Part shown: piece after piece, positions 3,897 through 64,000 of the stretch
How positions within the stretch are numbered: the stretch's first letter is position 1
Layout of the letters: each line of letters begins with the position of its first letter
NCBI RefSeq assembly: GCF_003970675.1
Contig: NZ_CP034562.1
Coordinates: 4,004,001 to 4,068,000 of the forward strand
Length of the DNA: 64,000 nt
Source of the DNA: Flammeovirga pectinis
GTDB taxonomy: Bacteria; Bacteroidota; Bacteroidia; Cytophagales; Flammeovirgaceae
Direction: 5' to 3'
The notes under the pieces: model-generated
Told to the model about the DNA's origin: nothing
Databases searched by the model: none
Seen by the model: only the letters and a program-made list of their open reading frames with translations
Program-made: the position numbers and the translations under genes

Positions 3897-3916
3897 AGAT
3901 TTTTTTCTTCTAGAGG

Positions 3917-3958: not shown

Positions 3959-4215
3959 ATGAATGTCAATAAACTTGTTTAATCATTAAAAAATTTGGTT
4001 AATTTGTTTGTGTAGTTAAACTACCCGTTAGAAATGCTATTTAAAAATAGCATTAGCAGAGAGTGTTTTATAAAATACGTCTTTTGATATTACTCAAATT
4101 AGTAAAAATATGTTAACAGTAAGATATGTGTTACAGTTGTTAATCAATTAATGTTAAATTGAAAATTATACTTCTAACACAATAAATGCACATATTGAAG
4201 TGCAAAATTTATACG

Positions 4216-6078: not shown

Positions 6079-6257
6079 TTTACTTTTCAACTTTTAATAA
6101 GCGTTAAAATATACTTTTTTTAAGTGATTGATTAAACGGTTTTTTAATATATGATTATTGAATAGTTATTTGATCTTCAGTATTTAATATCATTTATTTT
6201 TAAGTGATTAGCAATTGATTTGTAGACTTATATAAAGTTGTATTATTACACTTAATG

Positions 6258-6335
6258 TTTGATTATTGTACTGTAATCAAATACAATAACTTTATACTAA
6301 TAACAAAGTATTTGATGCATATAGCTAATACTTTG
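6258..6335 (+). promoter_or_regulatory. Nested inverted repeats upstream of ribokinase
   Basis: Three perfect inverted repeats overlap in the 80 bp before the ribokinase start: 6258-6265 with 6274-6281 (TTTGATTA/TAATCAAA), 6276-6284 with 6308-6316 (ATCAAATAC/GTATTTGAT), and 6304-6312 with 6327-6335 (CAAAGTATT/AATACTTTG). Each shares bases with the next, so as RNA they are mutually exclusive. The last arm ends 4 bp before the ATG. Either a multi-site operator or an RNA switch that hides the start codon; the sequence alone cannot decide. Confidence 0.5.
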
Positions 6336-6339
6336 CATT

Positions 6340-7242: not shown

Positions 7243-7263
7243 TACGCTAATCTAATTACCAAT

Positions 7264-8262
7264 ATGTTTATAATAGAAAATTATTCTTTAGCTGTAGCTT
7301 TTTGCTTTATCACTATGCTCTGTTGGGGTTCTTGGACTAATACTCAGAAACTAGCAAGTCAGAAATGGAATTTCCAATTGTTTTATTGGGACTACTCAAT
7401 TGGTGTGGTACTTATCTCTGTAGTTTTGGCGTTAACAATGGGCTCTTTTGGAGAACATGGACGTGGATTTTTAGAAGATATGTCTCTTGCAGATACAAAC
7501 GCAATTACAAGTGCATTTATTGGAGGCGTCATTTTTAATATTGCAAATATACTATTAGTAATTGCTATAGATATTACAGGAATGGCAGTAGCTTTTCCAG
7601 TCGGTATAGGGTTAGCATTAGTGATTGGAGTAATAGATAATTATTTAAAAGATCCTTCTGCAGATCCATTTTTAATATTTACAGGTGTAGTGCTAATTGT
7701 ATTGGCAATTTTACTTAATGCGATCGCTTATAAACGCTTACCTAACCAGCAATCAGGGAGTAGTAAAGGGATAATTATTGCATTAATTGCTGGAATATCA
7801 ATGGGCTTCTTTTACGGTTTTGTTTCAGATGCAATGGCAACAAACCTAATTACTCCAGAGGTAGGGAAATTAACACCTTATTCTGCTGTAGTGATTTTTG
7901 CTTTAGGAATAGTACTTTCAAATTTTATTTTTAATACTATTAATATGTATAAGCCTCTATCTGGAGAGGCAGTTTCTTATACGGATTATATTCAAAAAGG
8001 AACACCAAAATTACATCTTATCGGTATTCTTGGAGGTGCAATTTGGGGAGTAGGAATGGCTTTTAACATTATCGCTTCAGAAGTAGCAAGTCCGGCAGTA
8101 TCTTATGGTTTAGGACAAGGTGCCACTATGATTGCAGCATTTTGGGGTGTTGTAATATGGAAAGAGTTTAAAGAGGCTCCAAAAGGAACAAATAAATTAT
8201 TAAACCTCATGTTTTTGCTATTTATAGTAGGACTTGGGTTGGTTGTATATTCAAAATTATAA
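7264..8262 (+). CDS. DMT-superfamily sugar/nucleoside-type permease
   Basis: 332 residues with about ten hydrophobic helices and almost no soluble part. The opening MLCWGSWTNTQKL segment, the GMAVAFPVGIGLALVIGV helix and the late IWGVGMAFNIIAS and AFWGVVIWKEF segments are typical of the GRP/RhaT/ureide-permease branch of the drug/metabolite transporter superfamily. Placed between a ribokinase and a secreted ADP-ribosylglycohydrolase-like protein, it most likely carries ribose or a nucleoside across the inner membrane. The substrate is inferred from the neighbours. Database entries for this branch are often labelled multidrug permease, which would be misleading here. Confidence 0.75.
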   Translation: MFIIENYSLAVAFCFITMLCWGSWTNTQKLASQKWNFQLFYWDYSIGVVLISVVLALTMGSFGEHGRGFLEDMSLADTNAITSAFIGGVIFNIANILLVIAIDITGMAVAFPVGIGLALVIGVIDNYLKDPSADPFLIFTGVVLIVLAILLNAIAYKRLPNQQSGSSKGIIIALIAGISMGFFYGFVSDAMATNLITPEVGKLTPYSAVVIFALGIVLSNFIFNTINMYKPLSGEAVSYTDYIQKGTPKLHLIGILGGAIWGVGMAFNIIASEVASPAVSYGLGQGATMIAAFWGVVIWKEFKEAPKGTNKLLNLMFLLFIVGLGLVVYSKL

Positions 8263-8273
8263 GACATAAATTA

Positions 8274-10220
8274 ATGAACAAATTTTACAAATATATCGGG
8301 GTATTACTTCTTAGTTTAACTGTAATAAGTTGTACAGAAAAGAAAGAGGAAGGAAATTATAAATTACTTTCGGTAGAAGAATATAACGATGCTGTTTATG
8401 CATCTTGGATTGGACAAATTATAGGGAATACTTATGGTTTAGGGTATGAGTTTAAATTTATAGACGAGCCAGGTCCAGATAAATTTCCTTACGGTTATGA
8501 TTTTACTTTAGAAGACCTTAAAAAACATGATGGTGCATATTCTGACGATGATACAGATATTGAATATATGTATCTAACACAAATGGAGAAGAATGGCATT
8601 GAACCAAGTTATAAAAATTTAGCCAATGCGTGGTCTACCCATGTAAAAGAGCGTGTTTGGTTTGCTAATAGAATGGCTGTAACATTAATTAATGCAGGTC
8701 ATTTCCCACCTGTATCTGGTTCAATTGGTTATAATACAGAATGGTTTCAGATAGATCCTCAATTGGTGAATGAAATTTGGGCAGTAACTTCTCCTGGAAT
8801 GATCAATTATGCTGTTGATAAATCAGAATTTTCTGCTAGAATAACAAACGATAGCTTTGGTGTTGACCCAACTTTACATTATGCAGCAATGTATAGTGCG
8901 GCCTTTTTCGAGAAAGATATTCATAAATTAATTGATATTGGAACACAAGCTCTTCCAAAAGACAGTCGTTTTAAAGCCATAGTTGAAAATGTAAAAAAAT
9001 GGCATTCAAAATACCCTAATGATTGGCAGAAAGCAAGAGCACTTGTAAAAGAGCATTACTATGTAGTAGAAGATTATAACAGACATTCTTGGGCTGTTGT
9101 AGATGCAAACTTAAATGGTGCTTATGGAATAATGGCTCTTTTATATGGTGAAGGAGATTTCCAAAAAACATTAGATTATAGTTGTGCTTTTGGAATGGAT
9201 GCGGACAATCAGGCAGCAACAATGTGTGGTTTATTGGGTATAGTGAATGGTTTTAAAAGCATACCTCATGATTTAATGTTTCCGGTAGAAGGTGCAAATT
9301 GGGAGTTACCTTTTAATGATCAATATAAAATGATAACAAGAGAGGGCTTGTCAGATGAAACGCTTACTAATCTTGCAAAAAGAACAACGGCACAAGGAGA
9401 GAGAATTATTAAAGCATATGGAGGTGAAGTGATTACAAAAGGAGGGAAGCAATATTATAAAATCAATACTGATGCAAAATTTGTCGCTCCTTTTGAATTA
9501 AATACTATTCCTAAAATGGCTATAGAAGTAAACAATCCTTTTAATTATCCTATCTATACTGGTGGTAATAAAGGAGATGTAAAAGTGAGAATTGATGGTG
9601 AATTACCGCAAGGAATCGCATTAACATCAACTGCTTTGGAAGGAACACCTACGGAAGTAGGAACGTATGCTTTTGATATAATTGCGGAATATAAAGATGA
9701 AGTAAAAACAATCAATGTAAAATTTGATGTTCATTCTAAAAATTTAGCTTCTACAGCAAAAGAAGTGGTTTATAATAAGAACTCAACAAATAAAAATATT
9801 GAATTAATTAGAAATGGCACAACTAAAGAGACCTACTATAGTACTAAAAAAGGTACTGCCAGAGAAGTAGACTTCTATGGTTATAAATGGGATAAACCAC
9901 AAACAATATCAGCTTTAATATATAATAACGGACAATCTGGAGAGTTTTGTGGTTGGTTTACTTCTTTTGAGGTAGAAATACTGAAAAATGGTAAATGGAT
10001 TAAACTAGAGGGAGAGGAAGTTTCGCCAAAAATGAACTTGGATAATTCGCAATGGTTAAAGCCTTGTTTTATGAATTACGAAATAACATTCAAACCTGTA
10101 ACTACTAAAGGAATTAGAATTGTTGGTCTTGGTGGTGGCATTGAGAAAGATGCAAATAATGCTCATTTAGGCATACAGTATTATACATCAATTAGCGAAT
10201 TGAGCGTATTTGAGAAATAG
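8274..10220 (+). CDS. Secreted ADP-ribosylglycohydrolase-family lipoprotein
   Basis: 648 residues with a lipoprotein signal (VISC, Cys20). Residues ~35-400 are an ADP-ribosylglycohydrolase (ARH) fold: the metal-binding acidic cluster DDDTDIE at 91-97 and a second GMDADNQA motif at 307-314, where classic ARH enzymes have GGDTDT. A putative-Ig (He_PIG-like) domain follows around 430-490 (LPQGIALTSTALEGTP), then a C-terminal discoidin-like beta-sandwich to 648. ARH enzymes cut N- or O-glycosidic bonds to ADP-ribose; here an export signal and the ribokinase/permease neighbours suggest it frees ribose from an external nucleoside or ADP-ribose compound. The exact substrate is not visible. The operon ends at the bidirectional terminator at 10285. 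Confidence 0.8.
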   Translation: MNKFYKYIGVLLLSLTVISCTEKKEEGNYKLLSVEEYNDAVYASWIGQIIGNTYGLGYEFKFIDEPGPDKFPYGYDFTLEDLKKHDGAYSDDDTDIEYMYLTQMEKNGIEPSYKNLANAWSTHVKERVWFANRMAVTLINAGHFPPVSGSIGYNTEWFQIDPQLVNEIWAVTSPGMINYAVDKSEFSARITNDSFGVDPTLHYAAMYSAAFFEKDIHKLIDIGTQALPKDSRFKAIVENVKKWHSKYPNDWQKARALVKEHYYVVEDYNRHSWAVVDANLNGAYGIMALLYGEGDFQKTLDYSCAFGMDADNQAATMCGLLGIVNGFKSIPHDLMFPVEGANWELPFNDQYKMITREGLSDETLTNLAKRTTAQGERIIKAYGGEVITKGGKQYYKINTDAKFVAPFELNTIPKMAIEVNNPFNYPIYTGGNKGDVKVRIDGELPQGIALTSTALEGTPTEVGTYAFDIIAEYKDEVKTINVKFDVHSKNLASTAKEVVYNKNSTNKNIELIRNGTTKETYYSTKKGTAREVDFYGYKWDKPQTISALIYNNGQSGEFCGWFTSFEVEILKNGKWIKLEGEEVSPKMNLDNSQWLKPCFMNYEITFKPVTTKGIRIVGLGGGIEKDANNAHLGIQYYTSISELSVFEK

Positions 10221-10280
10221 ATTGGATCATAAAAGAATACTTATTCGAATTTGATAGCTACTTATATTTATGAGCTAAAT

Positions 10281-10724
10281 ATTAAAAAAGTCCAATTGAA
10301 TGAATATTCAATTGGACTTTTTTTGTCGGTCTGTCTTATTTCTTTATAAAAATTATTTTACAACAAGTGTTTTCGAGGCGACACCTTTGTTTGTTGAGAT
10401 TCTTAGAATATAAACGCCTTGGCTTAATCCTTTTACATCTATCAACGAGTTAAATGTTGAGCCTTTATTTACACCAGAAATAGTAAATAAATCAATTTTA
10501 GAGATAATAGTACCTGCTGAAACGGATACTTTTACAAAATCTGAAGAGGGGTTAGGGTAAACCAATAAGTCTGACGCCAAAGTTACATTATCTAAAGCTA
10601 AAGCCTCTTCAGTTTTTTCTACTAACATTTCGGCTTTAATCTCACGTGCTGTATATGGAGTACCATAAGATGTTTCTCCCGCTGGTGTAGAAATTGTCAA
10701 TTCTAATGTACCAGCCTCTTCAAA
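10281..10724. repeat. Near-identical 3' block, copy A
   Basis: This block matches 15821-16264 at a constant offset of 5540 bp. By eye the two differ by two substitutions (10378 and 10569) and by the terminator loop. Homology beyond 10724 drops sharply and then resumes, so the pattern looks like a conversion tract within an older gene duplication. Confidence 0.85.
10285..10322. terminator. Bidirectional terminator
   Basis: A perfect long stem starting AAAAAGTCCAATTGAA with a short central loop (TGAATA at 10301-10306), flanked by A and T tracts. It lies between the convergent ARH-family gene and the first giant repeat protein and can serve both. A near copy is at 15825-15862. Confidence 0.85.
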
Positions 10725-13700
10725 TGTAACTGTTAGTCCGTCTACAGTAGCAGCTCCTGAAGTTGTTAATGCTAAGCCTGGAGCAGTTGTTAGAATATTC
10801 ATTTCCATTGAAGGAGTTTCATTAATACTAACTGCTGAAGGTAAATCATAGGTAATCACTGGAGAATACATGTAATATTCTTTTTCATGTAAAATCCATT
10901 TTCCTAACTCATTATCCCATCTTTCATTATATGTTTCAATACCCCAACGTTGCTCTCTGATTCCTAACCAGTCTTCTAGCTCGGCATTCCAAGTATATTC
11001 CCAAGCATCGTTTTCAACGGTTTTTTTATAAGGAACAAATTCATTAATTTCAGAGTCATATTTATATATTGCAGTATATCCTTTATTCGGATTATAATAA
11101 TTAAATAGTCTTTCTTTTATATGATCTTTTATCCACTTGGAACCATTCCACTCTTCGTAAATGCTTAATGAAAATGAAATATCTCCAGAATAGTTATAAT
11201 CAATTACTGTATTTCTATATATATTTTCCCATTCATCATTACCACCTATAGCATACTCATGGACACTTTGCTCTTCTTTATTAATATAATGAGTGTTTTT
11301 GAAAATCTTACACCAATCACCGATATTAGCTGACCAATCATAGTATTCATATATATCAAGATCTCCGTTTGTGTTAATAATTTTATTATTATTAACCCAA
11401 GTATCAGTGATCCATTCTTCGTGAATCCTAGTAGAAACCTCTCCCTCGATAGTAAAGGTATATGCCTCTACATATTGCCATGTATTATCAGAGAATTTCC
11501 ATTCTGAATAAGCTGTTCTATCACCATCATAATCTCTTTTCCTATCACCTATCCATTCCTGTTGCTTATCACTCCAATTATACGATATTTCAGAAGTCTT
11601 CACTTGCTCATCATTATAAATAAATTCATTTTTATAATTAAGCGCCCAATCTAGATTATCATAATCCCAGACGAAGTGAACAGATGCTACTTTATTTCCA
11701 TTCGTTTTAGATTTATTTTCATAAGAATATCTTCCTTCCCAAACATTGTTACTGTAATCCCAGTAATACGTTGCATACTTTATATATGTATAGCCGTCTT
11801 TGTCTTCCCTCTCTTCATGATCATATCTATAATCTCCAATCCACATTTCTTGATCAGAACTCCAATGATAACTTGAATGCTCAATAGTTTGTCCATCATC
11901 ATTTTTTTTAAACTCACTTTTGAAATGCTTTTCAAATTCAGAACCATTAATTTCGTAAGAAATACTGGTGTAAACATCTTCATCCTCAGAATATGTCATA
12001 CTATACCTTTTTTCAGGAACAAAGATAGTTCCATCATGAGAATATTGAGTAATACCTGATTGAACTCCATCAGTAAACTCATACATATACTTTTCTAATT
12101 CAACCCAAACAGGATCATCAAAAGTATTTGTATTTGTATAATAAGTTCTACTTGTTAAAACACTAGCCGTAGAATCTTCAATAACTAAATTATTCTTGTT
12201 AGAATCTATTAAAGAATCATTACTTACTTTTAAATTATAAGTAATTCTAAAATAGTCTTGATTAAAGTGACGCTCAATTAAAGTTATTTCATTATTATAA
12301 GAATTTTGAAAATCAGTATATATAGATTTCAATTGAGTATTAAAATTACTTGATGCATAACAATATTTATATTCAGAGATTTTTTGACCCTTCGATGCAT
12401 CAAAAACTGTTTCAGTTTTTACAAAAGTATCAACATTATATCTTACCTCTTGTTGGTTATAAATGACCCAAGCATCATTTGTATAATTAAAATATGTATA
12501 ATCATAATCACGATCATTTAGGTAGTTCCAATTTCGTTTAGAACTCAATCTATATTTTGAAGTTTCTGATGACCAATAAGAATAAATTTCCTGACTTTGT
12601 CTTCCTTCAGAGTCATATAGGTAATTATTTCTAGATCTTTTCACCCAACTACCATCATTAAAATTATCATGAAGGGATTGAGTTTTTTGATTTAACTCAT
12701 TAAATAAATAATTAGATCTATAGCCATATGTATAATAATTAAGATCAGTATCCCATGAACTACGGTACGAATACATTGTTATATAATCATTGTCATCGAA
12801 AGCATATCTACTTTCCCAAGAATTCACCCAAGTATTTCCTAAATAATTTTGGTGTTTATTTAAAATTTGATTTCCATTATCGTCATAGTCATACTCATAT
12901 TTGTAATCTCCTACCCAATCTTGATCTTCACTAGACCAATCGTAATAAGCATCTAAAATTGTATAATTATCAACATTACCAATCACTTTACGAGCTCTTT
13001 CGTTCTTAGAGCCAGATACATAAGCACCAGACTTCCCGAAAAGATAAACTTCTAAAAGTTTAATTCCATTTTCATTATATTCAAATTCATGCTTATAACT
13101 TTCATATGATCCCCAATCGTCTGGGGCAACTCTTTCCTCTAAAGTCAATCTATCTTCATTATCATATTCTAAAACCTTAGTAGCAATAGCAGTTGTAGCC
13201 CAGTCAGAATCAGCACTTTCAAATTCTTCAATTTTAGTAAGTAAATCATTAGAATTGTATTCATACTTTTTCAACCAATGATTTACCCACGTAGTCCCTT
13301 CACCTTTGTAATCAGCTACTTCTACTTCATCACCATTTTCATTGTAAGTATACTCATGTTTCCAATCATTACCCCAATTATTATTTTCAGAGTCCCAATA
13401 AGATGTAGCATCAGAATTAAAATTATATCTATTAATATATGTATACTGAGTTGAATTTAGCCAATCATCTGTGTTTATATTCCATGTTTGATATGTTCTT
13501 ATTTCAGTGTCATTATTAGGGTATTCATAGTTATTTTGATAATGATATAACCAATTATTATCACCATCATTGTAAGCATAATTACTTAATAAAGTTCTGC
13601 CTTCTTCATCAAAAGAGTTTTCTTCTTTATAGCTTTTTAACCAGATTCCTTCTGAATAGAAGTATTGTGAATACATTATTCTATTATTATTTTCATCATA

Positions 13701-51574: not shown

Positions 51575-53149
51575 ATGAAAAAATATTTATTCATAGCAGT
51601 ACTGTTTTTCCTTTATTCTTGTGCTGACAAGGAACAAGAATCAATTCCATCATCACAAAATGATGAACTGAGGAAACTTGAAAATAAAATCACAGAATTA
51701 AACGAGCAAATTACATCCGTTTCTAAACAAAAAGAGGGTGTAAATAATAATAATGCAGCTCTATCACAAGCTAATAAAGACTTGTTAGATGAGGTGGCTA
51801 AACAAGAGCAGAGTAACCAGACATTGCAAAATGCGATGAGTAAGAAAGAACAGGATAATAAGGTACTAGAAGATCAAATTCAAAAAGAATCTAAAAAGAA
51901 TCTAGTCTTAAAAGGTGAAGTAGATCAGAAAGTATTAGATAATCAGAATTTACAAAATAAGGTTACTCAAAAAGAACAAGATAATCAATTTTTACAAGGA
52001 GAAGTCAGTAAAAAAGATAAATTAAATCAAGACTTGTTTGATAAATTAATACAAGAAAAAAAAGACAAGCAAGTAGTTGATAATAAGATGAATAAAAGTA
52101 ATCAAGAGAATCAATTATTAAGAAATGAGGTAAACAAGAAAGATCAAAAAAATAAGGATTTAAGTCAAAAATTGACGAAAAAAGATAGTAAAAACACGCA
52201 ACTCCAATCTAAAATAAAAAGTAATACTCAAACTGCTTCAGCATTATCTCAGACTAATCAGAATTTACAAAATCAACTTTCCTCTGTAAATGCAGAAGTA
52301 CAAAAGAGAGATCAGGAGATTTTAAAATTTAAAGATGATTTAAATCAATCTAAAATAGCGTTACAAAGTTTAAAATCGAATGTAAACGTAAAGCAAAAAG
52401 AGATTGATGACTTAACGAAGGAAGTTGATAATACAAAACGTCAGTTAGTAGATTACTTAAAAAGGTTAGCACCTAGTCAGAAAGAAAAAATTAAAAATAT
52501 TAAAATAATTATTTTTTCTGATAAGACTCAAACAATAGACCCATTAAAACTTAAAGAAATTATTACATTCACTAATGAAGTGTACAAGAAAGCTGTTCAA
52601 GATTATATGAATGATCCAAAGAACGAACTTAAAAAATATATGTATGATATTTCAAATTTTAAGGTAACATCAGAAACTTACACTGGTACTTATGGTCTTA
52701 AATTTTTGATGCGAGTGAAACAACAAACAGATGAATTTGATAAATTGATAGAAACGTTAAGTTCAACAAATCAACTTCCTGTATTAAAAACTAACGAAGA
52801 AATAACAGTATATGCTTATATGAGCTCTTCTATTTGGTCAAGTAAATTTGAAGCTACCTTTGTAAATGGAAAATTACAAATAAATACAGGGACACCTGTA
52901 AAAGGATCAATAACAGCTAAATATGGAGATAATCTAAAAAAAGGTATTACTTCTAATCCTATGAATATCCTTTTTAGTACAGTAGATAATCATATTCTCG
53001 CACATGAAATTGGTCATGGTTTTGGGTTTATGCATGATATGCAAAATAAGAAGGCCCTTATGAATGGATTAGGAAGTAAAAATGTGAAATTTTTCACAAA
53101 AGACAGAGCAGATCTATTAACAGAGAAGTTACTCGGTTTGAGTAAATAA
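51575..53149 (+). CDS. Coiled-coil-stalked lipoprotein with a metzincin-like metalloprotease end
   Basis: 524 residues with a lipoprotein signal (LYSC, Cys16). Residues ~28-290 are coiled coil; within them residues 76-215 form ten consecutive 14-residue repeats (pattern x-K-x-x-x-N-x-x-L-x-x-x-V/I-x, for example KKEQDNKVLEDQIQ). Residues ~300-524 are a compact domain with the zinc motif HEIGHGFGFMH at 477-487, i.e. HExxHxxGxxH, and a following ALMNG that could be the Met-turn of metzincins. So a protease appears to stand on a long rod anchored in a membrane. No adjacent substrate or partner gene; own terminator downstream. The specific peptidase family cannot be named by eye. Confidence 0.75.
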   Translation: MKKYLFIAVLFFLYSCADKEQESIPSSQNDELRKLENKITELNEQITSVSKQKEGVNNNNAALSQANKDLLDEVAKQEQSNQTLQNAMSKKEQDNKVLEDQIQKESKKNLVLKGEVDQKVLDNQNLQNKVTQKEQDNQFLQGEVSKKDKLNQDLFDKLIQEKKDKQVVDNKMNKSNQENQLLRNEVNKKDQKNKDLSQKLTKKDSKNTQLQSKIKSNTQTASALSQTNQNLQNQLSSVNAEVQKRDQEILKFKDDLNQSKIALQSLKSNVNVKQKEIDDLTKEVDNTKRQLVDYLKRLAPSQKEKIKNIKIIIFSDKTQTIDPLKLKEIITFTNEVYKKAVQDYMNDPKNELKKYMYDISNFKVTSETYTGTYGLKFLMRVKQQTDEFDKLIETLSSTNQLPVLKTNEEITVYAYMSSSIWSSKFEATFVNGKLQINTGTPVKGSITAKYGDNLKKGITSNPMNILFSTVDNHILAHEIGHGFGFMHDMQNKKALMNGLGSKNVKFFTKDRADLLTEKLLGLSK

Positions 53150-53345: not shown

Positions 53346-55090
53346 GTTCTGATTCACTTTTGGTGGAAAGCTTTTTTAACATTTAGCATATAAGATATTA
53401 TTAATTTTGTTATTATGATATCACTCTCTACCTTTTCTAGTTTTGGTTCATTTGAATTTGATGGGTTCTCTGTTGATGAATCTAATACTGTAAAGAAAAG
53501 AATCATTCATTTGAAATCTATATCTCCTTCCGGAAAATGTCCTTGTTGTCATACAGAAAGTAATTCAAAACATAGCTATTATTTACGTAACCTCAAAGAT
53601 TTATCTTGGTCAGATTCTAGTGTTGAAGTTTCCTTAAAAGTAAAAAAATTCATTGTTCGAGGAAGATTTTTACTGAACGTTTTACTCAAGAAATACAACC
53701 TTATGCTCGTTCTACAACTAGATTACAACATCAATTAATGGTTTTAGGACTCACAATAGGTGTACGAGCATTACAACGAATATCATCACATCTACAATTA
53801 GAATATTCCACTTCATCTTTGTTGCGTTTTGCTCATTTGTTTCAAGTGAATGACAATAATAAACTCACTATTAATTGTTTAGGCATTTAAAAAACAAGTT
53901 TCCTATGATACTATTTTAGTGAATTTGGAAACTAAATAACCCATAGCTTTACTTCCTGATAGAAAAGTAGAGACCGTAAGTAAGTGGTTATTAGCACATC
54001 CTGAAATTAAAATAATTACCCGTGATGGGTCCAGTAGTTATGCATCAACAGCAACAAAAGGAGCTCCTCAAGCAGAACAAATAAGTGATAAATGGCATAT
54101 CAGCTGTAATTAGAAGCTATTTAGAAGGATATAAAAGTGATATTAGAACAGTTTGTGAAACTATTTCAGCAAATGGACACGAAAAATTGAAGTCTGCTCT
54201 TCTTTCTCAAAAGATTGAATTGCCTGAGACTAAATACTCTGCATTATTTAAAAAAGTCAAAGAACTACAAAAAGAAGGTAAATTATCACAAAGGAAGATT
54301 GCTAAGGAATTAGGTATGAATAGAGATGCAGTCGGAAGATATTTTAAGTTGGATGCTTATCCACGTAATTTTTCTGAGCCTATATATGAAAAAAATATAG
54401 CTCTTTTATTCGCAAACTTTGGAAAAATGGTGAACGAAGTGCTAAGGAGATATGGCGAAAAATAAAAGAAAAAGGATATTCAAGAGATTATCCTCATTTC
54501 TATAGATATGTTCAGTCCCATGTTAAAAAACCCATGTAGATATTCATCCATTAAAAATTAAATATAACACTATTAATCAGGTAAATAGATGTTTATTTCT
54601 TCATAGTAACGAAAGAACTATGGAAGAATCTACATTTATAAAATCACTTTGTGATAAAATTCCTCACTTAGAAAAATTGCGTAAACGCTATTTTGAATAC
54701 CGTAATATCTTCTTATCTAAGTTACCTGATAAATTACCAACTTGGTTAGCATCAGCTAAAGAATTGTCTATTGAAGGTCTAACTAGATTAGTTGGAGGAA
54801 TTGAAAGAGATATGGAAGCTGTTAAAAATGCTGCTATTTATAAATTAACAAATGGTCAAGTAGAAGGGCAAGTCAATAAATTAAAAATGATAAAACGTAA
54901 AGGGTATGGAAGGGCAAAATTACCCTTTTTAGAAAAACAGATGATGATATTAAATGAGTTATAAATGATAAAATAAAGCATCAAACCTGATCATAAAATT
55001 ACTTTTATACAGTGATTTTGTAGCGTAAAAATGAAGTGTTATTACCTCCTATAAATGTTAAAAAGCTTTCCACCAAAAGTGAATCAGAAC
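53346..55090. mobile_element. Decayed ISL3-family insertion sequence
   Basis: Bounded by near-perfect terminal inverted repeats: left 53346-53380 (GTTCTGATTCACTTTTGGTG...) and right 55057-55090 as its reverse complement, differing by one T in a T run. Inside is one transposase broken into several frames. No 8-bp target duplication is visible next to the ends (TTCACCCA on the left, CTCCTGTG on the right), so the junctions have changed since insertion. It forms the left border of the lanthipeptide cluster. Confidence 0.85.
53415..54964 (+). pseudogene. ISL3-family transposase, broken
   Basis: Recognisable pieces in order: the N-terminal zinc finger (CPCCHTESNSKHSYYLRNLKDLSW, 53415-53670), a frameshift near 53660 after KKFIVRG into FTERFTQEIQPYARSTTRLQ, a stop, then VNLETK with a stop and LLPDRKVETVSKWLLAHPEIKIITRDGSSSYA and GAPQAEQISDKWHI (the DDE catalytic region), a further break before the helical insert (KLSQRKIAKELGMNRDAVGRYF), and the C-terminal catalytic Glu region (NGQVEGQVNKLKMIKRKGYGRAKLPFLEKQMM, ending 54964). 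At least four disruptions, so it cannot make active transposase by itself. Confidence 0.88.
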
Positions 55091-55672: not shown

Positions 55673-55843
55673 ATGAAAAAGAAAATCAAATTAAACAAAG
55701 AGACACTAGTCTCTTTACAAGAAGATCAAATGAAATCTTCTTTTGGTGCTGAACAAAGTAATGATTCAGGTGCTGTGTGCGACAATGAAATAGGAGCTTT
55801 AGCAATCGCAGCTGATTCTTGCTGCAAAAAATCTTGTAACTAA
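55673..55843 (+). CDS. Class I lanthipeptide precursor (LanA-like)
   Basis: 56 residues, start ATG 55673, stop TAA 55841. The leader MKKKIKLNKETLVSLQEDQM has the KLNKET-x-x-x-L pattern of Bacteroidota class I lanthipeptide leaders, which LanB recognises. Met20, Leu15 and Gly25-Ala26 fit a double-glycine-type cleavage site (positions -7, -12, -2/-1) for a C39 protease, leaving a 30-residue core from Glu27. The core has four Ser (29, 32, 49, 54) and four Cys (36, 50, 51, 55), with an adjacent Cys-Cys, and no Thr, so up to four lanthionine rings are possible on paper. It lies 112 bp before the LanC gene and in the same cluster as a full LanB. Ring pattern and exact cleavage site are inference. 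Confidence 0.82.
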   Translation: MKKKIKLNKETLVSLQEDQMKSSFGAEQSNDSGAVCDNEIGALAIAADSCCKKSCN

Positions 55844-55954
55844 TAGTTTTTTAACTATGAATTTACAATAGATAATTTCTTTGTTATATAAAAAGTCTAT
55901 TTATCAGTCGTTTAGACTAGTTTAAACGACTGATATTCATATATTTAAATACTC

Positions 55955-57193
55955 ATGTCAATTTTAAATCAAAATATTAATACTCAGCTTGAAAAAATAT
56001 ATAGCACAATCGAGTCTTTATTGGTGACACTAAACACTAATATAAAAGCAGTAGAAAAATCAAAAGATATAAGTTTAGGAAATGGATTGTCAGCATTAAC
56101 CATTTGTAACTTTTATGCAGGAAGATATCTAAATGATTCCACATATATTGAGAAAGGTAATGAACTAGTGGAAATGATAATTGATATATTAAATGAGCAA
56201 AGTTTTTCCTTAAAAAATATGTTCTCTTATTTTAATGGTCTAACTGGAGTTTGCTATCTATTTAATCATTTACAAAAAAAGGATCTCATTGTATTTGATG
56301 TGCAAGAAAATTTATCTGCTATTGAAAATTATATTTTTGATTTAGGTTATAAATCAATAAAAGTAGGTAAAAGTGATTATTTACATGGTGGTTTAGGAAT
56401 TTTATATTATTTCTTAAAAAGAATTGAAAGTGAGATCAATGTAGAGCGTTGTAACAAGATAATTGATGCCTATTTTACAAAAGCTAAAATTGATGAACAG
56501 GGCCTTCGAATGATAAATACTGTGTTATTTGAGGCGGTTGAAGAAGAGTATAACTTAGGTTTAGCTCATGGTCTTGCTGGTCAACTTATCATATTAAGTC
56601 ACGCTTATGAGAAGGGACTAAAAAAGGAAAAAATACAATATATCATTGAGCAAGGGGTGAAATATATAGAAGGGAAGAAAAGAAAGTTAGAAAAAACGAA
56701 CGGTAACTCTTTATATGCAGTGAGTTTTATTGATATTTTACCTCCTGATGACCCTGCAAATTTAGAGTTTTATGATTCTCGATTAGCATAATGTTATGGA
56801 GATCTTAATTTTGCCGTGATGTACTTTAAGTTAGGGAAGATATTTAACAACCCCAATTATATAGAAAGAGCAACTGAGATTTCAACTAGAGTAGCTTATA
56901 TTAGAAATATAGAAACTGCTAAAATTGGAACTTCATTTTTCTGCCATGGATCTGCTGGAGTAGCTTATATCTTTAATAGTTTTTATAAAAAGACCAATAA
57001 GAACATTTTCTTTGAAGCGAGTGCTTATTGGTTATCATTTACATTGGAAAATATTGAAGAGCAAATCAAAATGCTTAAAACTAAGAATCAATCATGCCTT
57101 TTAGGAGGTGGAGGAGGTACTTTACTAAGCTTACTTTCATTCTTGAATAAAGATAGCACTGATAAATGGAATGAATTATTTATTCTAGATTAG
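55955..57193 (+). pseudogene. Lanthionine synthetase C (LanC), interrupted by an in-frame stop
   Basis: One continuous frame of about 412 codons broken only by TAA at 56789-56791. The first 278 residues contain the early LanC helices, YLHGGLGILYYF and LGLAHGLAGQLIIL. Directly after the stop comes [15 protein letters not shown], then [13 protein letters not shown] and [18 protein letters not shown] and CHG carry the zinc ligands. The stop stands where most LanC proteins have Trp (SRLAW-CYGD), so restarting at the nearby GTG/ATG would lose the first zinc Cys. LanC normally adds Cys thiols to dehydrated Ser/Thr to make (methyl)lanthionine. As written, no active single-chain LanC can be made without readthrough. 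A sequencing error would need two base changes from TGG. Confidence 0.88.
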
Positions 57194-57355
57194 TTTTTAC
57201 TTATAGGTCCGTAAAGAAAATGATTAATGTTGTGCTATTAAAAGTAAATCCTTTTAATATTATTCGTTTATTATGTGTCGTTATGTGAAATAGAGGTTTT
57301 TAGTATTTAATTATGTATTATTCATCATTGATAATATTAATTTTCACTTTAAGTA

Positions 57356-57739
57356 ATGGAACAAAAAATTAAAATTGGATTACTAGACTTTGGTATTAGG
57401 AAAACTGACTATAGTAGTATGGGAAAGATTCTTGATGTCATGGAGTATGCTGAGCATGCTGACCGTTTAGGTTTTTCTAGAATTTGGTTAACAGAACATC
57501 ACAATTATTCTTCAAGCGATGCATGGTCTAGTCCACAAATGTTACTCCCGCTTATTTTAAATAATACGGATCAAATTAATGTTGGTGTTGCGGGGGTATT
57601 GTTAAATTATTACTCTTCATATTAAGTAGCATTAAATATTGATATTCAAGCATTTAAAACCCCTACTGGACTTTTGCCTTTATATCAGGAAACACCCATA
57701 TTTGATAGAATAAAAAAGCCTAATGTTTGCATTATTTAG
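57356..57739 (+). pseudogene. Truncated luciferase-like flavin-dependent monooxygenase (LLM)
   Basis: The 89 residues from ATG 57356 to TAA 57623 are the N-terminal part of an LLM-class oxidoreductase: IKIGLLDFGIR, DVMEYAEHADRLGFSRIWLTEHHN, LLPLILNNTDQINVGVAGVLLNYYS. Family members are about 330 residues. The same frame continues after the stop with VALNIDIQ, which still fits the family (usual YYSPxxVALxF), and then degenerates to a stop at 57739. So the gene has a nonsense change and a large 3' loss. LLM-fold enzymes occur in some lanthipeptide clusters as reductases of dehydroamino acids (as known for F420-dependent LanJ-type enzymes); that role here is inference from location. Confidence 0.8.
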
Positions 57740-57895
57740 ATAAAATATATTTCATTAACATAATTCACCTTTGCAATGTGAAAAATACCAATTCTTTTTA
57801 AAATTATACATCGATCGAACATAATTAGAGTTTGTGTATCCCAAAACTCTCCAAAAAAAAGGGATGTTTTATACATACAATTATTTATAATAATT

Positions 57896-58105
57896 ATGAA
57901 TTTTATTAAATCTAATAAGGATTTAAAGTCTGTTGCTAAGAAATCAATTCAGGCTGAAGAACTATTTGAAAAAAGAACAGTTGTAGAATTGTCTGATGAA
58001 GAATTATCAAATACAAAAGGAGGTACAAGTCCTTCTTGTATTGTTACTGTGTCAATACTTGTAACAACACTTATTCCAAATGATGCTTTTTCATCGAAAA
58101 ATTAA
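57896..58105 (+). CDS. Second RiPP precursor with a double-glycine leader
   Basis: 69 residues. The leader ends VVELSDEELSNTKGG (Gly42-Gly43), a textbook C39-protease site and of the ELSDEEL type more usual for class II lanthipeptides and microcins than for LanB substrates. The 26-residue core begins TSPSCIVTVSILVTTLIP and has ten Ser/Thr but a single Cys48, so at most one lanthionine ring could form and the rest could be dehydrated or left alone. The start of the core recalls beta chains of two-component lantibiotics, which normally have more Cys at the C terminus. No LanM is in the window. It may be a LanB substrate rich in Dha/Dhb, an unmodified bacteriocin, or a decayed precursor. Confidence 0.72.
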   Translation: MNFIKSNKDLKSVAKKSIQAEELFEKRTVVELSDEELSNTKGGTSPSCIVTVSILVTTLIPNDAFSSKN

Positions 58106-58137
58106 AGAGCAACTGATTTTTAAATCATAACTATTAT

Positions 58138-58193
58138 GTACTCAACCATAATTATTTTTCTTAAAATTAAGAACTATGATTATAGTTGAGTGC
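58138..58193 (+). terminator. Long hairpin after the second precursor
   Basis: Arms 58138-58155 and 58176-58193 pair over about 18 bp with two or three imperfect positions, and an inner TTCTTAA/TTAAGAA stem extends it. No T tract follows, so it may be a processing or stabilising stem that raises precursor mRNA over the downstream genes, as is usual for precursor genes. Confidence 0.55.
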
Positions 58194-58227
58194 TTACTGT
58201 AAAACATTTTGTTAAATACTAAAAATA

Positions 58228-58788
58228 ATGAATAAAAAATTATATTTTTTTCTAATATCTAGTTGGATTATAATATCAAGAATACTTGATGTATACTATA
58301 CATATCAATTCACTCCTGATTTATCAAAAGAGGCAAATCCAATAGTTTCTATTTTTGGAATTTCTTCATGGTCTATTTTATCATTCATAATTACTGTAGT
58401 TGTAATTTATGTAATATACACATTCTATTTAGTGATTTTTAAACCCTTTGATTTACTACCCAATGAAAAAGGATATTCTTATAGTAATATTATAGCGTAT
58501 TTATTTTTAGGGGTTAAAGAAAGTTGGTTATCTGTGTTCTATAAATTCCCCAAAAGTTACAAAAGAATGAAGTATTATATAGGACATATTTTACCAGTAT
58601 CGTTTGCATATGTAGGATTAATTACAACTATAATGTGGTTATTAATAAATAATACAGAGTCATTTTATACTGAATATTATCGTTTGAAATATGTCTTGGT
58701 TATTATTTTACTACCTATTGTTAGTTTTATCTTTGTTTGGACTTATTTGATGTATAAAAAATATCTAAATAAATTACGAATTAACTAA
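58228..58788 (+). CDS. Four-span membrane protein, candidate immunity factor
   Basis: 186 residues, about four to five membrane helices (approximately 5-25, 47-75, 122-143, 155-177) and basic loops. A conserved-looking stretch after helix 1, SRILDVYYTYQFTPDLSKEANPI, resembles the D...T...E-x-NP pattern of DUF5658-like small membrane proteins; no function is known for those. I do not recognise a firm family. It lies between the second precursor and the tailoring genes, where a self-protection protein is often found, and the composition is as AT-rich as the rest of the cluster. Immunity is a guess from position and topology. Confidence 0.6.
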   Translation: MNKKLYFFLISSWIIISRILDVYYTYQFTPDLSKEANPIVSIFGISSWSILSFIITVVVIYVIYTFYLVIFKPFDLLPNEKGYSYSNIIAYLFLGVKESWLSVFYKFPKSYKRMKYYIGHILPVSFAYVGLITTIMWLLINNTESFYTEYYRLKYVLVIILLPIVSFIFVWTYLMYKKYLNKLRIN

Positions 58789-59324
58789 TTTATTTTTATT
58801 TGGCATTACGGTCAATAGTGTTTTGTTTTCTGGGTAGATATGAAAAAGGTTGTAATTAAGGCAAATTTATAATTACATAAAAGATTATTGGTTTAGTTTG
58901 TTACTTTATCTATTTTCTTATTAATCATTCAACAAAAGAATTAATAAATTTATTATTAACACTTGTATTTGATTCGTTTTATGATTTATCCCTTTACAAT
59001 CTGATATTATAACCTCTTAATTGGGAATTTTATAACAATTATGGTTTGTAAATAAAATTGAATAAGTAAAGTGATGCTTTATTTAGTAACTAAAAGTTAT
59101 ATCACATATTTTAATCCATCTAAACGTTTACAAATATTCAGATATGATATTGATTACATTTTAAATGTGATCAATTGTTAAAAATAAATATTCAAAAGTA
59201 AGGTCATAAAATGGATTAATAGGGCATATTTATGAAAAAATGATTCTTCTCTTAATAGATCATTAATAAAGTGCGTTTTTCCATTATTTTTTTAATAGCA
59301 TAATATTTTTTAACCTAAAAAAAT
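58789..59324. other. AT-rich intergenic region, 536 bp
   Basis: No peptide gene with a leader-like sequence was found on the plus strand; only frames of about ten codons. A second promoter for the MDR-LanB-transporter genes probably lies here, but none could be placed. Confidence 0.4.
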
Positions 59325-60413
59325 ATGAAACAATTAGTTATTTGTCCAAATAATTTCCACAAACATTACGAAGATACTTTTTCTTATGGAAAACTGAAAT
59401 TTAATGGTAAGGATATTAATTACGCACTTATTGAAACCGAAGATACATATTTCAATCCTAATGAACACGTAGATAAGGTTTTAATTCGTAAAAAAGCATT
59501 TTCATGTAATTATAGAGATTTATCAATATTATTATTGCAATCTGAAAGAATTAATAATAACTCTCAAATTGCATATACCCCTTTTGGTTCTGAGTTTTCA
59601 GGTATTATTGAAGACATAGGAAATAATGTAGTTAATTTTAAAGTAGGAGATAGAGTAATATGTAATGGTTCATATGATATAAATAATAATGAATTTGGAT
59701 TACCTTCTAATGGAACCTCGAAAGAGTTGGAAATTATTGATATAGGAAATATTATACATATGCCTAGTAAAATGTCATATGCAGTAGGGGCGGGTTTTAC
59801 TATAGGAGCACAAACAGTATACTCAATGATTAATAAGTTAAAGTTAGAAAAAAAAGCGAAAGTATTACTTACTGGTATTCGTGCTAATACATCGTTATTT
59901 GCATTATCGGCTTTAAAAAAAAATAATATAGATGTTTATGGTTTAACTCGTTCAAAAATAAATGAATCATTGTTTAAAAAACATGGGATGAAAGAAATTT
60001 TTAATTTCAAAGAAGAAGAAGGTTTTTTAAGTAATCCAAGTTTATACGAGCTAATTAAGAAAACAGGGGGGTTTGATGCGATAATTGATCCTTTTACTGA
60101 TAGCTATTTTTTTGATGCTTTGAAAGCTTTAAAATTTAATGGTAAATATATTACTTGTGGACTTTCAAATCAATTCGATTATGACTATAAAAAAATATCT
60201 TTAAACACAGAACTTGCTGCCTTAATTCTCAAAAACTTGAAAATTATAGGAAATTGTCTTGGTAAGACAGAGGATTTGAGGGAAGCATTAGATGATTTTC
60301 AAAAAGGGAATTTGTATGTATTTATTGATTCAATAACAAATGATCCTATTGAATTTATGAATCAATCGTTTATCAATAAAAATAGATTGGGGAAAGTAAT
60401 TTTTGAGTACTAA
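59325..60413 (+). CDS. MDR-family dehydrogenase, possible LanJ-type dehydroalanine reductase
   Basis: 362 residues of the medium-chain dehydrogenase/reductase superfamily: catalytic domain with SCNYRDLSILL, FGSEFSGIIEDIGNNVVNFKVGDRVIC, then a Rossmann part (KVLLTGIRANTSLFALSALKKNNIDVYGLTRS) whose coenzyme loop is TGIRANTS instead of the usual GxGxxG. It is 15 bp before LanB and so co-expressed with it. Zinc-dependent MDR enzymes of the LtnJ (LanJA) type reduce dehydroalanine in lanthipeptides to D-alanine; that is the natural hypothesis here. The structural-zinc four-Cys loop of typical alcohol dehydrogenases is not visible, which favours the quinone-oxidoreductase-like or LanJA branch. Confidence 0.75.
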   Translation: MKQLVICPNNFHKHYEDTFSYGKLKFNGKDINYALIETEDTYFNPNEHVDKVLIRKKAFSCNYRDLSILLLQSERINNNSQIAYTPFGSEFSGIIEDIGNNVVNFKVGDRVICNGSYDINNNEFGLPSNGTSKELEIIDIGNIIHMPSKMSYAVGAGFTIGAQTVYSMINKLKLEKKAKVLLTGIRANTSLFALSALKKNNIDVYGLTRSKINESLFKKHGMKEIFNFKEEEGFLSNPSLYELIKKTGGFDAIIDPFTDSYFFDALKALKFNGKYITCGLSNQFDYDYKKISLNTELAALILKNLKIIGNCLGKTEDLREALDDFQKGNLYVFIDSITNDPIEFMNQSFINKNRLGKVIFEY

Positions 60414-60428
60414 AATAAAAAATGTATT

Positions 60429-63400
60429 ATGACTACTAAATATCAAATTAATGACGATATAATAATTCGCACTCCTATTTTTCCTTTTAATAGAGTCAGT
60501 AATGACGCAGAACTTCTAAAATTTATTGAGAATAACTTTTTCTTAGAAGCAATTTACATTGCATCTCCAATATTATATGAAGAAATTGTGAAATTAAAAA
60601 AAGGTATACTGAATGAAACAAAAAGAGATCAAGTTTTGAATAGTTTATATAGGTATGCTATAAGAATGAATTCAAGAAGTACACCCTTTGGTCTATTTTC
60701 TACAGTATCAATTGCTAACTGGAGTAAGGAAACTTTAACACCATTTTTGCCAAATAATTTTTATAGACATACAAGAATTGACATGAATTTATTAGTTGTC
60801 TTAGTTGAGGAACTTGAAAAAGTTCCAGAAATTAGAGAACAATTAATTTATTACCCCAATAATAGTATTTATGAGAAAAATAATGAATTTCGATATATTG
60901 AATATCATTATAATTCAGATAATATAAAGAAGTTTAAGATGTCAAGTGTAGCTATTAATAGTTATTTACATGAAATATATTGTTTAGCAAAGGGGGGGAT
61001 AACTATAACAAAATTAGCAGAAAGGATTACTGATGATAATTTAACAATAGATGTTGCTAATGATTTGATTGCATTAATGATTGAATCTCAAGTCCTAGTT
61101 TCTGAGTTTATTCCACGCTTGACATCTAATGATACGTATTTAAATCAGGTTATTAATATAGTAGAACAAATAACAAAAAAATCTGATAGCCTCAATGTTG
61201 AATTAGTACTTCAAAAGTTAAAGAAAATTCAAGAAAAACTTAATATATTAGATTTACACCCCGAAAATTCAGTTGATATTTATAAAAATATTATTAATGA
61301 TTTATATGAATTTATACCCAAAATAGATCATAGTAAAGTGTTTCATGTAGATGGATTTCGTAAGAGTGTTTCAAGTGTATTATCTTCATATAAGAGTAAA
61401 ATATCAGAGATAATAAATGTGATTTTAGCAATAAATAAAAATTCTGTAAAAACTAATAAAAATATAGAAAATTTCAGATATAAATTTATTGAGCGATATG
61501 ATAGTCAGGCAATACCACTTGTTGATGCTTTAGATGAGGACTTTGGAATAGGTTACCCTATAAATGTATTATCTCGAACAAACACTTTAATTGAAAAATT
61601 ACACTTTAATGGAGAAAAACAAAGGACTATTGATATTAATTTAAATGTAAGAGAAAAATGGTTGTTAGATGTACTTAATGTCATAGAAAGTAAAGGGAGT
61701 GATCAAATTAATTTAGAAGATTATATAAAGGAATCAGATCTCAAGCAAATCAATACTTATGATATGCCACCCTCTTTTTGTTTTATGTTTCGTCTTTTTA
61801 ATGATAATATTTTATTTGAATCTACTTTTGGTACTTCAGCAGCTTCAATGATGAGTCGTTTTAGTTATGGTAATCAGGATGTCAAAAGAGCTACTCATCA
61901 AATTGTTGAAAAAGAAGAAAAGTTATTAAAGGAGGGTGCTATTATGGTAGATATTGTTCATATGCCTGATAATAGAATGGCAAATGTTATAGCTCATCCA
62001 TTATTTAGAAAGTATGAAATGCCTTATTTAGGAGGAGGGGCTGTTAACAATCAAAATACTATAAATATTGAGGATATTTTTATTAAGGTAATAAATAATA
62101 AAATAGTTTTATTCTCAAAAAAACTTAATAAAATAATTATACCAACTAAAACGAATGTACATAATCATTTTAATATGTCGTTACCTTTATATCAATTTTG
62201 GGGTGATTTATCTTCGGATTACTTTAACAAAGATATAGAGTTTCATTGGGGAAATATAAATGCTATGAGGACTTATTTACCAAGGGTTTTATTTAAAGGA
62301 TCTATAATAATGCCTGCAACTTGGAATTTAAGAACCGAAGAATTAATAAATTTATCAAAACTAAATGATGATGAATTGTTGATTAAAATAAATGGCTTAC
62401 AAAAAACATTAAATTTACCACAACGTATATTATTTTCAGAATTTGATAATGAACTTGTTGTTGATTTTTCAGATATAAGATCAATACGAATATGGTTACA
62501 CCTTGTAAAACATAAACAGATTATTACTGTAAAGGAGTTTCTATGGGGTAATAAAGGGGAGTTTTTAAATCAATATGTAGCTAATATATCTAGCCAAGAA
62601 ATAAAAGATTATTCATTTTGTTTAAATGAATTTGAAAGTAGTATAGGAACTTCTCAAGTAATTCAAAGAGATTATTCTCCTGGTGATAAATGGTTATACT
62701 ATAAAATTTATTGTAATATGATATCTTTTGATGAAGTTCTAATTGATATTATATCACCATTATTAACTTCCTTTATCAAGAAAGGTTATATTAAAAGTTT
62801 CTTTTTTATAAAGTACTATGATACAGACTATCATATTCGCCTTCGACTAGAGTTAATAGATAACTCATTTTATGGCGAAATGATTGAATTATTTCATAAT
62901 GAACTTCAAAAGTCGACAAAAAAATCGTTAATTCATGATTTACAAATAGCGACTTATCAAAGAGAAGTTGAAAGATATGGTTCCATTTCAATGGAAATTT
63001 GTGAAAATTATTTTTACATAGATAGCTTTTTTTGTATTCACTTACTAAAAAAATTAGAAAAAATAAAAAAAAATAAGCTTAAAAGTCTTGTAGGTTTAGT
63101 ATTAATTAATAAAACATTAGAAGGATTCAAGTTTACTTTAGATGATAAAATTAATTATGTTAATACAGCTAAAACTCGATATCAAACGGAATTTAATGTA
63201 GATAAAAATACCTTTTCTTCATTGAATCAAAATTATAGAAAAGATAAAGATCTTGTATTTGAGGTATTAAGTGAAAATTTCGCAATAAACCAATTAGATA
63301 ATATTATTGATCAAAAAGAAATTAAGTTACAGCCAATAATAGATTCTCTATTGAATCTAGAAAAAAATAATAAATTGGAGGTTAGTAAATTTCAACTAAT

Positions 63401-63539
63401 TTCTAGTCTTATTCATATGACTTTAAATAGATTTATATCTCAAGATGAAAGAATACAAGAATATATTTTATATGAATATCTTTTTAAGTATTATAAGTAT
63501 CAAAAACATTGTTTAGAAAATAAACTTGAAGCTATATAA
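60429..63539 (+). CDS. lanB: Lantibiotic dehydratase LanB, full length
   Basis: 1036 residues, the size of a complete class I LanB with both halves fused. N-terminal glutamylation domain: IIIRTPIFPFN and the hallmark RSTPFGLFSTVS at 83-93. C-terminal elimination domain (SpaB_C/thiopeptide type): GDKWLYYKIYC and FFFIKYYDTDYHIRLRL from about residue 755 on. It activates precursor Ser/Thr with glutamyl-tRNA and removes glutamate to give Dha/Dhb. No stop or frameshift was seen, in contrast to LanC in the same cluster. In pinensin-type Bacteroidota clusters LanB is, as I recall, split in two; here it is one chain. The C39 exporter gene starts 108 bp later. Confidence 0.95.
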   Translation: MTTKYQINDDIIIRTPIFPFNRVSNDAELLKFIENNFFLEAIYIASPILYEEIVKLKKGILNETKRDQVLNSLYRYAIRMNSRSTPFGLFSTVSIANWSKETLTPFLPNNFYRHTRIDMNLLVVLVEELEKVPEIREQLIYYPNNSIYEKNNEFRYIEYHYNSDNIKKFKMSSVAINSYLHEIYCLAKGGITITKLAERITDDNLTIDVANDLIALMIESQVLVSEFIPRLTSNDTYLNQVINIVEQITKKSDSLNVELVLQKLKKIQEKLNILDLHPENSVDIYKNIINDLYEFIPKIDHSKVFHVDGFRKSVSSVLSSYKSKISEIINVILAINKNSVKTNKNIENFRYKFIERYDSQAIPLVDALDEDFGIGYPINVLSRTNTLIEKLHFNGEKQRTIDINLNVREKWLLDVLNVIESKGSDQINLEDYIKESDLKQINTYDMPPSFCFMFRLFNDNILFESTFGTSAASMMSRFSYGNQDVKRATHQIVEKEEKLLKEGAIMVDIVHMPDNRMANVIAHPLFRKYEMPYLGGGAVNNQNTINIEDIFIKVINNKIVLFSKKLNKIIIPTKTNVHNHFNMSLPLYQFWGDLSSDYFNKDIEFHWGNINAMRTYLPRVLFKGSIIMPATWNLRTEELINLSKLNDDELLIKINGLQKTLNLPQRILFSEFDNELVVDFSDIRSIRIWLHLVKHKQIITVKEFLWGNKGEFLNQYVANISSQEIKDYSFCLNEFESSIGTSQVIQRDYSPGDKWLYYKIYCNMISFDEVLIDIISPLLTSFIKKGYIKSFFFIKYYDTDYHIRLRLELIDNSFYGEMIELFHNELQKSTKKSLIHDLQIATYQREVERYGSISMEICENYFYIDSFFCIHLLKKLEKIKKNKLKSLVGLVLINKTLEGFKFTLDDKINYVNTAKTRYQTEFNVDKNTFSSLNQNYRKDKDLVFEVLSENFAINQLDNIIDQKEIKLQPIIDSLLNLEKNNKLEVSKFQLISSLIHMTLNRFISQDERIQEYILYEYLFKYYKYQKHCLENKLEAI

Positions 63540-63647
63540 AGTTGTTAAAATATTTAATCTCAAATGAATATAAAGCTGAATCCCTTTTTAAACTAACGGG
63601 CAGTTATTAATAGACAAATTATTAAACTTAACAACAACACATTCGAA

Positions 63648-64000
63648 ATGTTAAAGAGATTTCCATTTTTTAAACAATTAGACGCAATGGACTGTGGTCC
63701 TGCATCTCTTAAAATAATATCAAAGTATTATGGTAAAAATTTTTCAATGAAATATTTGAGAGATAAATGTAACATAACTAGAGAAGGAGTTTCATTGTTG
63801 TCAATAAGTAAAACCTCAGAAAGTTTAGGGTTTAAAACTCTTGGATTAAAAACTACTTTTGAAGATTTAAAAGATAAATTACTTTTACCTTGTATTATTC
63901 ATTGGGAATACAAACATTTTGTCGTTGTTTATAAAATAACATTAAAAAAAATTTATATTTCAGACCCACAATTAGGATTAGTTACCTACAATATTAAAGA
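63648..64000 (+). CDS. C39 peptidase-containing ABC exporter, 3' end missing
   Basis: Starts at ATG 63648 and runs off the window after about 117 residues. All visible sequence is a C39 bacteriocin-processing peptidase: Gln10 and Cys16 in KQLDAMDCGPASLKIISKYYG, the catalytic His90 in HWEYKHFVVVY, and Asp106 in ISDPQLG. In the full protein membrane helices and an ATPase would follow. Such exporters cut double-glycine leaders while secreting the peptide, which fits the GA and GG sites of the two precursors at 55673 and 57896. Confidence 0.88.
   Translation, partial: MLKRFPFFKQLDAMDCGPASLKIISKYYGKNFSMKYLRDKCNITREGVSLLSISKTSESLGFKTLGLKTTFEDLKDKLLLPCIIHWEYKHFVVVYKITLKKIYISDPQLGLVTYNIK

Follow-up and report, generated by a model that had tools for sequence, protein, structure and literature searches.

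A LanB-LanJA gene set beside a decayed LanC half probably yields D-residue peptides in place of sulfur rings in Flammeovirga pectinis

Introduction

What does a class I lanthipeptide locus make once its cyclase gene is broken? The question is raised by a gene cluster in the genome of Flammeovirga pectinis (6.68 Mb, three contigs), which we analyzed within a 64,000-nucleotide stretch of DNA (G000:C1:4004001-4068000), here called the window. In the survey of Walker et al. (2020), Bacteroidetes accounted for nearly one in four class I LanCs, while pinensins were the only lanthipeptides isolated from the phylum (PMC7268733). LanJA-family zinc-dependent dehydrogenases were found there in all four lanthipeptide classes, and D-residues were suggested for class I (PMC7268733).

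The first-pass annotation of the window called lanthipeptides few in Bacteroidota. This holds for isolated compounds (pinensins only) but not for genes: LanB clusters are common in the phylum, with LanB relatives in 32 of 396 Bacteroidota genomes. A first scan of genome contigs using a single LanB as the query had returned no confirmed relatives. From the genes of the window cluster we infer that it probably makes D-residue peptides in place of sulfur rings, and its Flavobacterium relatives appear to be alike.

Layout and borders of the locus

ORF lists and domain matches placed all cluster genes on the + strand. The gene set originally named was recovered in its entirety: a LanA-like peptide, a LanC-family gene, a fragment of a luciferase-like oxidoreductase (LLM), a double-glycine peptide, a membrane protein, an MDR dehydrogenase, LanB and a C39 exporter. 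The surroundings were also as described. Cluster DNA is AT-rich, with 24-29% GC compared to 28-36% across most of the window. The left border is an ISL3-family transposase remnant in several broken frames (53415-54964, + strand), with Zn_ribbon_ISL3, HTH_24 and DDE_Tnp_ISL3 matches on three pieces. Further left lies a 524-aa lipoprotein-like coiled-coil protein (51575-53149) with a C-terminal metalloprotease-like motif, HEIGHGFGFMHD.

On the right, the cluster had been taken to end at the window edge; it continues beyond it. The C39-peptidase ABC exporter (PF03412, 728 aa, + strand) begins at 63648, leaves the window at 64000 and ends at G000:C1:4069834. It is followed by a full HlyD ORF (423 aa, 4069984-4071255) and by TolC (OEP domain, 4071297-4072706), extending the cluster to G000:C1:4072706. 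There the end of TolC has been swapped for IS6-type transposase sequence (4072703-4073389, − strand, DDE_Tnp_IS240), affecting its last residues. Scans for promoters and terminators in the cluster performed at chance level, and no tRNA was found beside it. In an empty-site comparison with genus member G001, synteny with the window genome was limited to ~2.7 kb right of the cluster.

The LanA, lanC and LLM genes look like a decayed set

The LanA precursor (55673-55843, + strand, 56 aa) scored 26.1 bits against NF038153, 'class I lanthipeptide' (cut-off 22), so that a precursor with a class I leader and a Ser/Thr/Cys core is present. Its core, approximately EQSNDSGAVCDNEIGALAIAADSCCKKSCN, contains 4 Ser and 4 Cys. 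An HMM of six Emticicia LanAs matched it at E = 2e-5, with no matches in shuffled sequences; the LanA cores of Emticicia aquatilis end in SCCKGSC.

The following gene, lanC, is a single 412-codon frame (55955-57193, + strand) with PF05147 on both parts. An in-frame TAA at 56789-56791 splits it into pieces at 55955-56791 and 56816-57193. Translation and alignment of homologues showed that the stop sits where the WCYG zinc motif has its Trp, a residue present in 56 of 61 LanC homologues, and that the zinc Cys follows directly. Conversion of TGG to TAA takes two substitutions. Beyond the stop, the frame is open to its natural end and retains all zinc ligands. The next in-frame start (GTG, 56816) lies past the zinc Cys, so reinitiation would give no active cyclase; a two-chain LanC arising in this manner was ruled out, as one zinc ligand would be missing.

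A genome-wide search for a zinc-bearing LanC returned none besides the broken one. The remaining two LanC-family proteins, on contigs C2 and C3, are without zinc ligands, one reading FLKG, WDLG and SFFKG and the other YLKG, W-IG and SFLNG. The initial assignment of a LanC was correct as to family, but the gene is interrupted. The class I machinery is real, as the LanB attests; that it still operates as a class I lanthipeptide cluster is unlikely, because LanC is broken and the genome has no other zinc-bearing LanC.

The LLM gene (57356-57680, + strand) is also a pseudogene. PF00296 covers 57356-57625, and the fragment scored 64 bits against TIGR03558. Its 89 codons end in a stop at 57623, after which homology continues in the same frame for ~18 codons to about 57680; the remainder is lost. 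The gene had been described simply as a remnant, which was right as to the fragment and overlooked the nonsense stop and the homologous codons behind it. By tblastn, the region matched the LLMs of L051 and L112 at E = 1e-26 to 1e-28. The L112 cluster, from Emticicia aquatilis, holds both an intact LLM and the best homologue of the window LanC (31%). LanA, LanC and LLM thus look like one decayed set from an Emticicia-type class I lanthipeptide cluster, a reading based on the Emticicia-type match, the nonsense codon in lanC and the truncation of LLM.

The remaining genes are full length

The only LanB in the genome (60429-63539, + strand, 1036 aa) is full length, with both its glutamylation and elimination domains (PF04738, E = 4e-107; PF14028, E = 2e-61). 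Residues R14, R79, R83, D118, D308, R477, R804, R806, E846, R849 and H996 were invariant among 11 LanBs, and we take these, from an alignment with NisB, to correspond to its catalytic positions. Residue 795, beside the HIRLRL motif of the elimination domain, is Lys in the window LanB and Arg in at least 90% of aligned LanBs (FFIRY). In the LanB tree, the window protein sits on a long branch, apart from those of the Flavobacterium LanJA clade, and the tree points to no donor. The window C39 exporter is closer to LanC-associated exporters.

The double-glycine precursor pre2 (57896-58105, + strand, 69 aa) was identified with an HMM of 35 Flavobacterium array peptides (34.5 bits, E = 3e-10), for which it was the best of 442 ORFs; shuffled sequences gave no match. 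It falls under the NF038153 cut-off (17.5 vs 22 bits), while the Flavobacterium array peptides lie above it (22.6 to 48.2). The pre2 core, TSPSCIVTVSILVTTLIPNDAFSSKN, has 9 Ser/Thr and 1 Cys. This Cys lies within S-P-x-C, arranged like the nisin B-ring; it may remain a free thiol or react spontaneously with the Dha/Dhb of T-S-P-S-C.

Both precursors have homologues beside LanB genes, the point on which the first-pass annotation had let its reading stand or fall. Its proposal that two unlike leaders share one LanB and one C39 exporter fared less well: the peptides belong to separate enzyme sets, LanA with the decayed LanC and LLM, and pre2 with the intact LanJA and LanB. Complete class I machinery serving both precursors was ruled out by the broken LanC and the lack of a zinc-bearing replacement.

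Between pre2 and the MDR gene lies a membrane protein (58228-58788, + strand, 186 aa), recognized as an ORF with long hydrophobic segments. It matched no family significantly, and the sampled LanB loci contained no homologue of it; it is a candidate immunity protein. An AT-rich non-coding gap (58789-59325) separates it from the MDR gene.

The MDR dehydrogenase is a predicted LanJA

The MDR dehydrogenase was found where expected (59325-60413, + strand, 362 aa). Its identity, which had been missed, is the informative point of the locus. In addition to MDR Pfam domains, the protein shared 32% identity with LtnJ of lacticin 3147 (pMRC01) over residues 1-362 (138.7 bits) and scored 259 bits against an HMM of LanB-associated MDRs. 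The best PDB match reached only 38.5 bits, to a quinone oxidoreductase, and assignment as a generic quinone oxidoreductase was rejected. The only other match in its own genome was 29% identical over part of the protein (E = 2e-8).

Published LanJA enzymes act on Dha, and RodJA on Dhb as well, giving D-Ala and D-Abu; LanJ enzymes are known mainly from class II and from a class V lanthipeptide (PMC11519912). When co-expressed with NisBTC, LtnJ acts on LanB-made dehydropeptides, even linear ones without a leader (PMC10373908). A search of 72,556 plasmid records with the window MDR gave 19 records at E<=1e-15: LtnJ, 13 from Staphylococcus, three from Pediococcus, and those from Pseudanabaena and Azospirillum. 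Neighborhoods were inspected in Pseudanabaena, Azospirillum and Pediococcus. LanM is next door to the Pseudanabaena and Azospirillum relatives, while the Pediococcus relative adjoins a HopA1-domain gene and a kinase-like gene, a neighborhood that resembles a class V set. A LanJA is expected to have a dehydratase and a precursor nearby, and the window MDR has both: LanB starts ~15 bp downstream, and pre2 lies upstream. Judged by homology and gene context, the window MDR is a LanJA of the LtnJ type, a predicted dehydroamino acid reductase.

LanB and LanJA occur together with no LanC nearby in Flavobacterium

Within Bacteroidota, relatives of the MDR are rare and always accompany LanB. At E<1e-30 they occurred in 2 of 396 Bacteroidota genomes, the window genome included. 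In a set of 300 Flavobacterium genomes they were present in four, also beside LanB, and among 80 LanB loci an MDR was present in four Flavobacterium clusters (L102, L105, L106 and L113), with F. terrae counted in both groups of four. LanB adjoins the MDR in L102, L105, L113, L164, L170 and L172. These LanJA clusters encode HlyD, C39-ABC, LanB and MDR, mostly together with arrays of double-glycine peptides whose cores start with TSPLC, TTPVC, SSPAC, ATP or ITP. The cluster in G230 is unlike the array clusters: its LanB is split, and only one peptide, rich in Thr, accompanies the MDR.

No LanC was found near the MDR relatives in L102, L105, L106, L113, L164, L170 and L172. Since just 55 of 111 sampled LanB loci have a LanC nearby, this absence alone is weak evidence. 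Two genomes with both LanB and LanJA, G230 and G757 (99% complete), had no LanC anywhere, while an unlinked LanC exists elsewhere in the LanJA-bearing Flavobacterium genomes G577-G580 and in G764. The peptides themselves are informative as well. All five peptides visible in G757 are Cys-free, for example with the core ITPGIIIGLTISIVIDKMLD, as are several from L043 and L102, which have up to 12 Ser/Thr. Thioether rings are impossible for such cores, as there is no Cys to form them. Other peptides have one Cys, as in pre2.

Loci L043 (genome G214) and L109 have a LanB of the Flavobacterium LanJA clade with no adjacent MDR, which shows that LanJA can be dispensed with. L043 retains the peptide family, and no LanC was found in the G214 genome.

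Proposed pathway and alternatives

Our data lead us to favor, with moderate confidence, a composite locus in which a decayed Emticicia-type LanA/lanC/LLM set stands beside an intact, ring-free LanB/LanJA pathway. Here LanB, with its conserved residues, would bind the pre2 leader, then glutamylate and eliminate core Ser/Thr to give Dha/Dhb. LanJA, placed in its family by sequence, would reduce these to D-Ala/D-Abu. Judging from their domains, the C39-ABC exporter would cleave after GG and export the peptide together with HlyD and TolC. No enzyme would install thioether rings, since the window LanC is dead and none of the LanJA relatives has a LanC nearby. The predicted product is short and hydrophobic, contains many D-residues and probably acts on membranes. 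Decay is limited to the LanC/LLM side, which is the gene set that the LanJA relatives lack. Points against this reading are the long branch of the window LanB outside the LanJA clade, an exporter closer to LanC-associated ones, the single Cys of pre2, the LanB loci with no adjacent MDR, the unlinked LanC genes of G577-G580 and G764, and the clipped end of TolC.

More broadly, these clusters might represent a RiPP type in which LanB and LanJA operate without any cyclase, converting tandemly encoded cores, rich in Ser/Thr and often devoid of Cys, to linear D-Ala/D-Abu peptides, with the window genome having lost LanC and kept the pathway. We put this forward tentatively, as a possibility somewhat short of even.

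The signs of decay admit a different interpretation, in which the whole cluster is dying and its remaining genes are intact merely through recent decay, with no product. The nonsense codon in lanC, the nonsense codon and 3' loss in LLM, the ISL3 remnant on the left, the IS6-type insertion into the TolC end on the right and the AT-rich gap at 58789-59325 would all fit. Set against this, the LanJA half is full length with its catalytic positions kept (LanB 1036, MDR 362, C39-ABC 728 and HlyD 423 aa), and decay touches only the LanC/LLM side, whose genes the LanJA relatives lack. We consider loss of the whole cluster unlikely. The lanC stop could instead be an assembly error, or be read through, leaving a conventional class I cluster in which LanB, LanC and C39 serve both precursors and LanJA introduces D-residues. 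The open frame behind the TAA with its full set of zinc ligands, the 4 Ser and 4 Cys of LanA and the S-P-x-C of pre2 are what this would predict. It is made improbable by the two substitutions needed at a near-invariant Trp, by the independent breakage of the adjacent LLM, by a next start that lies past the zinc Cys and could not restore an active cyclase through reinitiation, and by LanJA relatives with no neighboring LanC.

A further alternative accepts linear dehydropeptides made by LanB and assigns the MDR no activity or some other substrate, such that Dha/Dhb would be retained. L043 (G214) and L109, which keep the LanB clade with no adjacent MDR and, in L043, the peptide family, speak for it. 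Every plasmid relative inspected comes from a lanthipeptide neighborhood of class II or class V type, however, and the Bacteroidota MDR relatives stand beside LanB; both observations render retention of Dha/Dhb highly improbable.

Comparison with known systems

The composite locus with a ring-free LanB/LanJA pathway has partial precedents. As in lacticin 3147 (LtnJ) and rodencin (RodJA), an MDR, homologous to LtnJ end to end, lies beside a dehydratase and double-glycine precursors. The LtnA2 sequence TTP....ISIL and the start of the pre2 core, TSP....VSIL, are also alike, a resemblance that is short and only suggestive. In contrast, those systems use a class II LanM which also cyclizes, while in the window the dehydratase is a class I LanB and a functional cyclase is lacking. 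In bicereucin and carnolysin, class II peptides with D-amino acids, D-Ala/D-Abu arise from Ser/Thr through a reductase (PMC10373908), as predicted here; they employ LanM with a flavin-type LanJB, unlike the LanB and LanJA of the window. Pinensins and the Emticicia aquatilis L112 cluster share with the window an NF038153 LanA leader, LanB, LanC, LLM, C39-ABC and HlyD. They differ in that the LanC and LLM of the window are pseudogenes and its intact pathway uses another kind of precursor.

In the open-access literature searched, we found no description of LanB and LanJA clusters without LanC. The survey of Walker et al. was anchored on LanC, and LanC-less clusters, as in Flavobacterium, would therefore be missed by it; LanC-anchored genome mining overlooks such clusters. 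If our reading is true, Ser/Thr-derived D-residues extend to class I systems of Gram-negative bacteria, and a natural LanB pathway can do without thioether rings. LanB and LanJA would then constitute a two-enzyme route to linear ribosomal D-Ala/D-Abu peptides, for which protease resistance is expected. In the Flavobacterium arrays, one LanB and one LanJA stand beside twelve or more almost identical precursors, which would offer a natural library for LanJA specificity.

Other RiPP-type loci

Locus L107 (BNCN01000002.1, titled Comamonas sp. KCTC 72670; 8847-9663, 9818-13200 and 13268-13480) has LanB and C39, with no LanC in the stretch examined. Its cores, which closely resemble pre2, comprise STPVCITVTIIISATIN and a further two that are rich in Thr and lack Cys. 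The organism label is perhaps doubtful, as the L107 LanB groups with Myxococcus.

The window genome contains two paralogous loci, L059 (G000:C2:178000-197999, positions 3052-10580) and L060 (G000:C3:39000-58999, positions 4935-12370). Each encodes a short double-glycine peptide (62 and 51 aa, respectively), C39-ABC, thioredoxin-like and membrane proteins, a UDP-glycosyltransferase-like protein and a large LanC-like protein (595 and 523 aa) that lacks the zinc ligands. An ISL3-type transposase family is common to L060 (3028-4550) and the window (53415-54964), adjoining two RiPP-type loci in one genome, which suggests IS-mediated movement or decay. In Bacteroidales, zinc-less LanC-like genes occur near sugar enzymes (PMC10352776). 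The products of L059 and L060 are possibly glycosylated bacteriocins.
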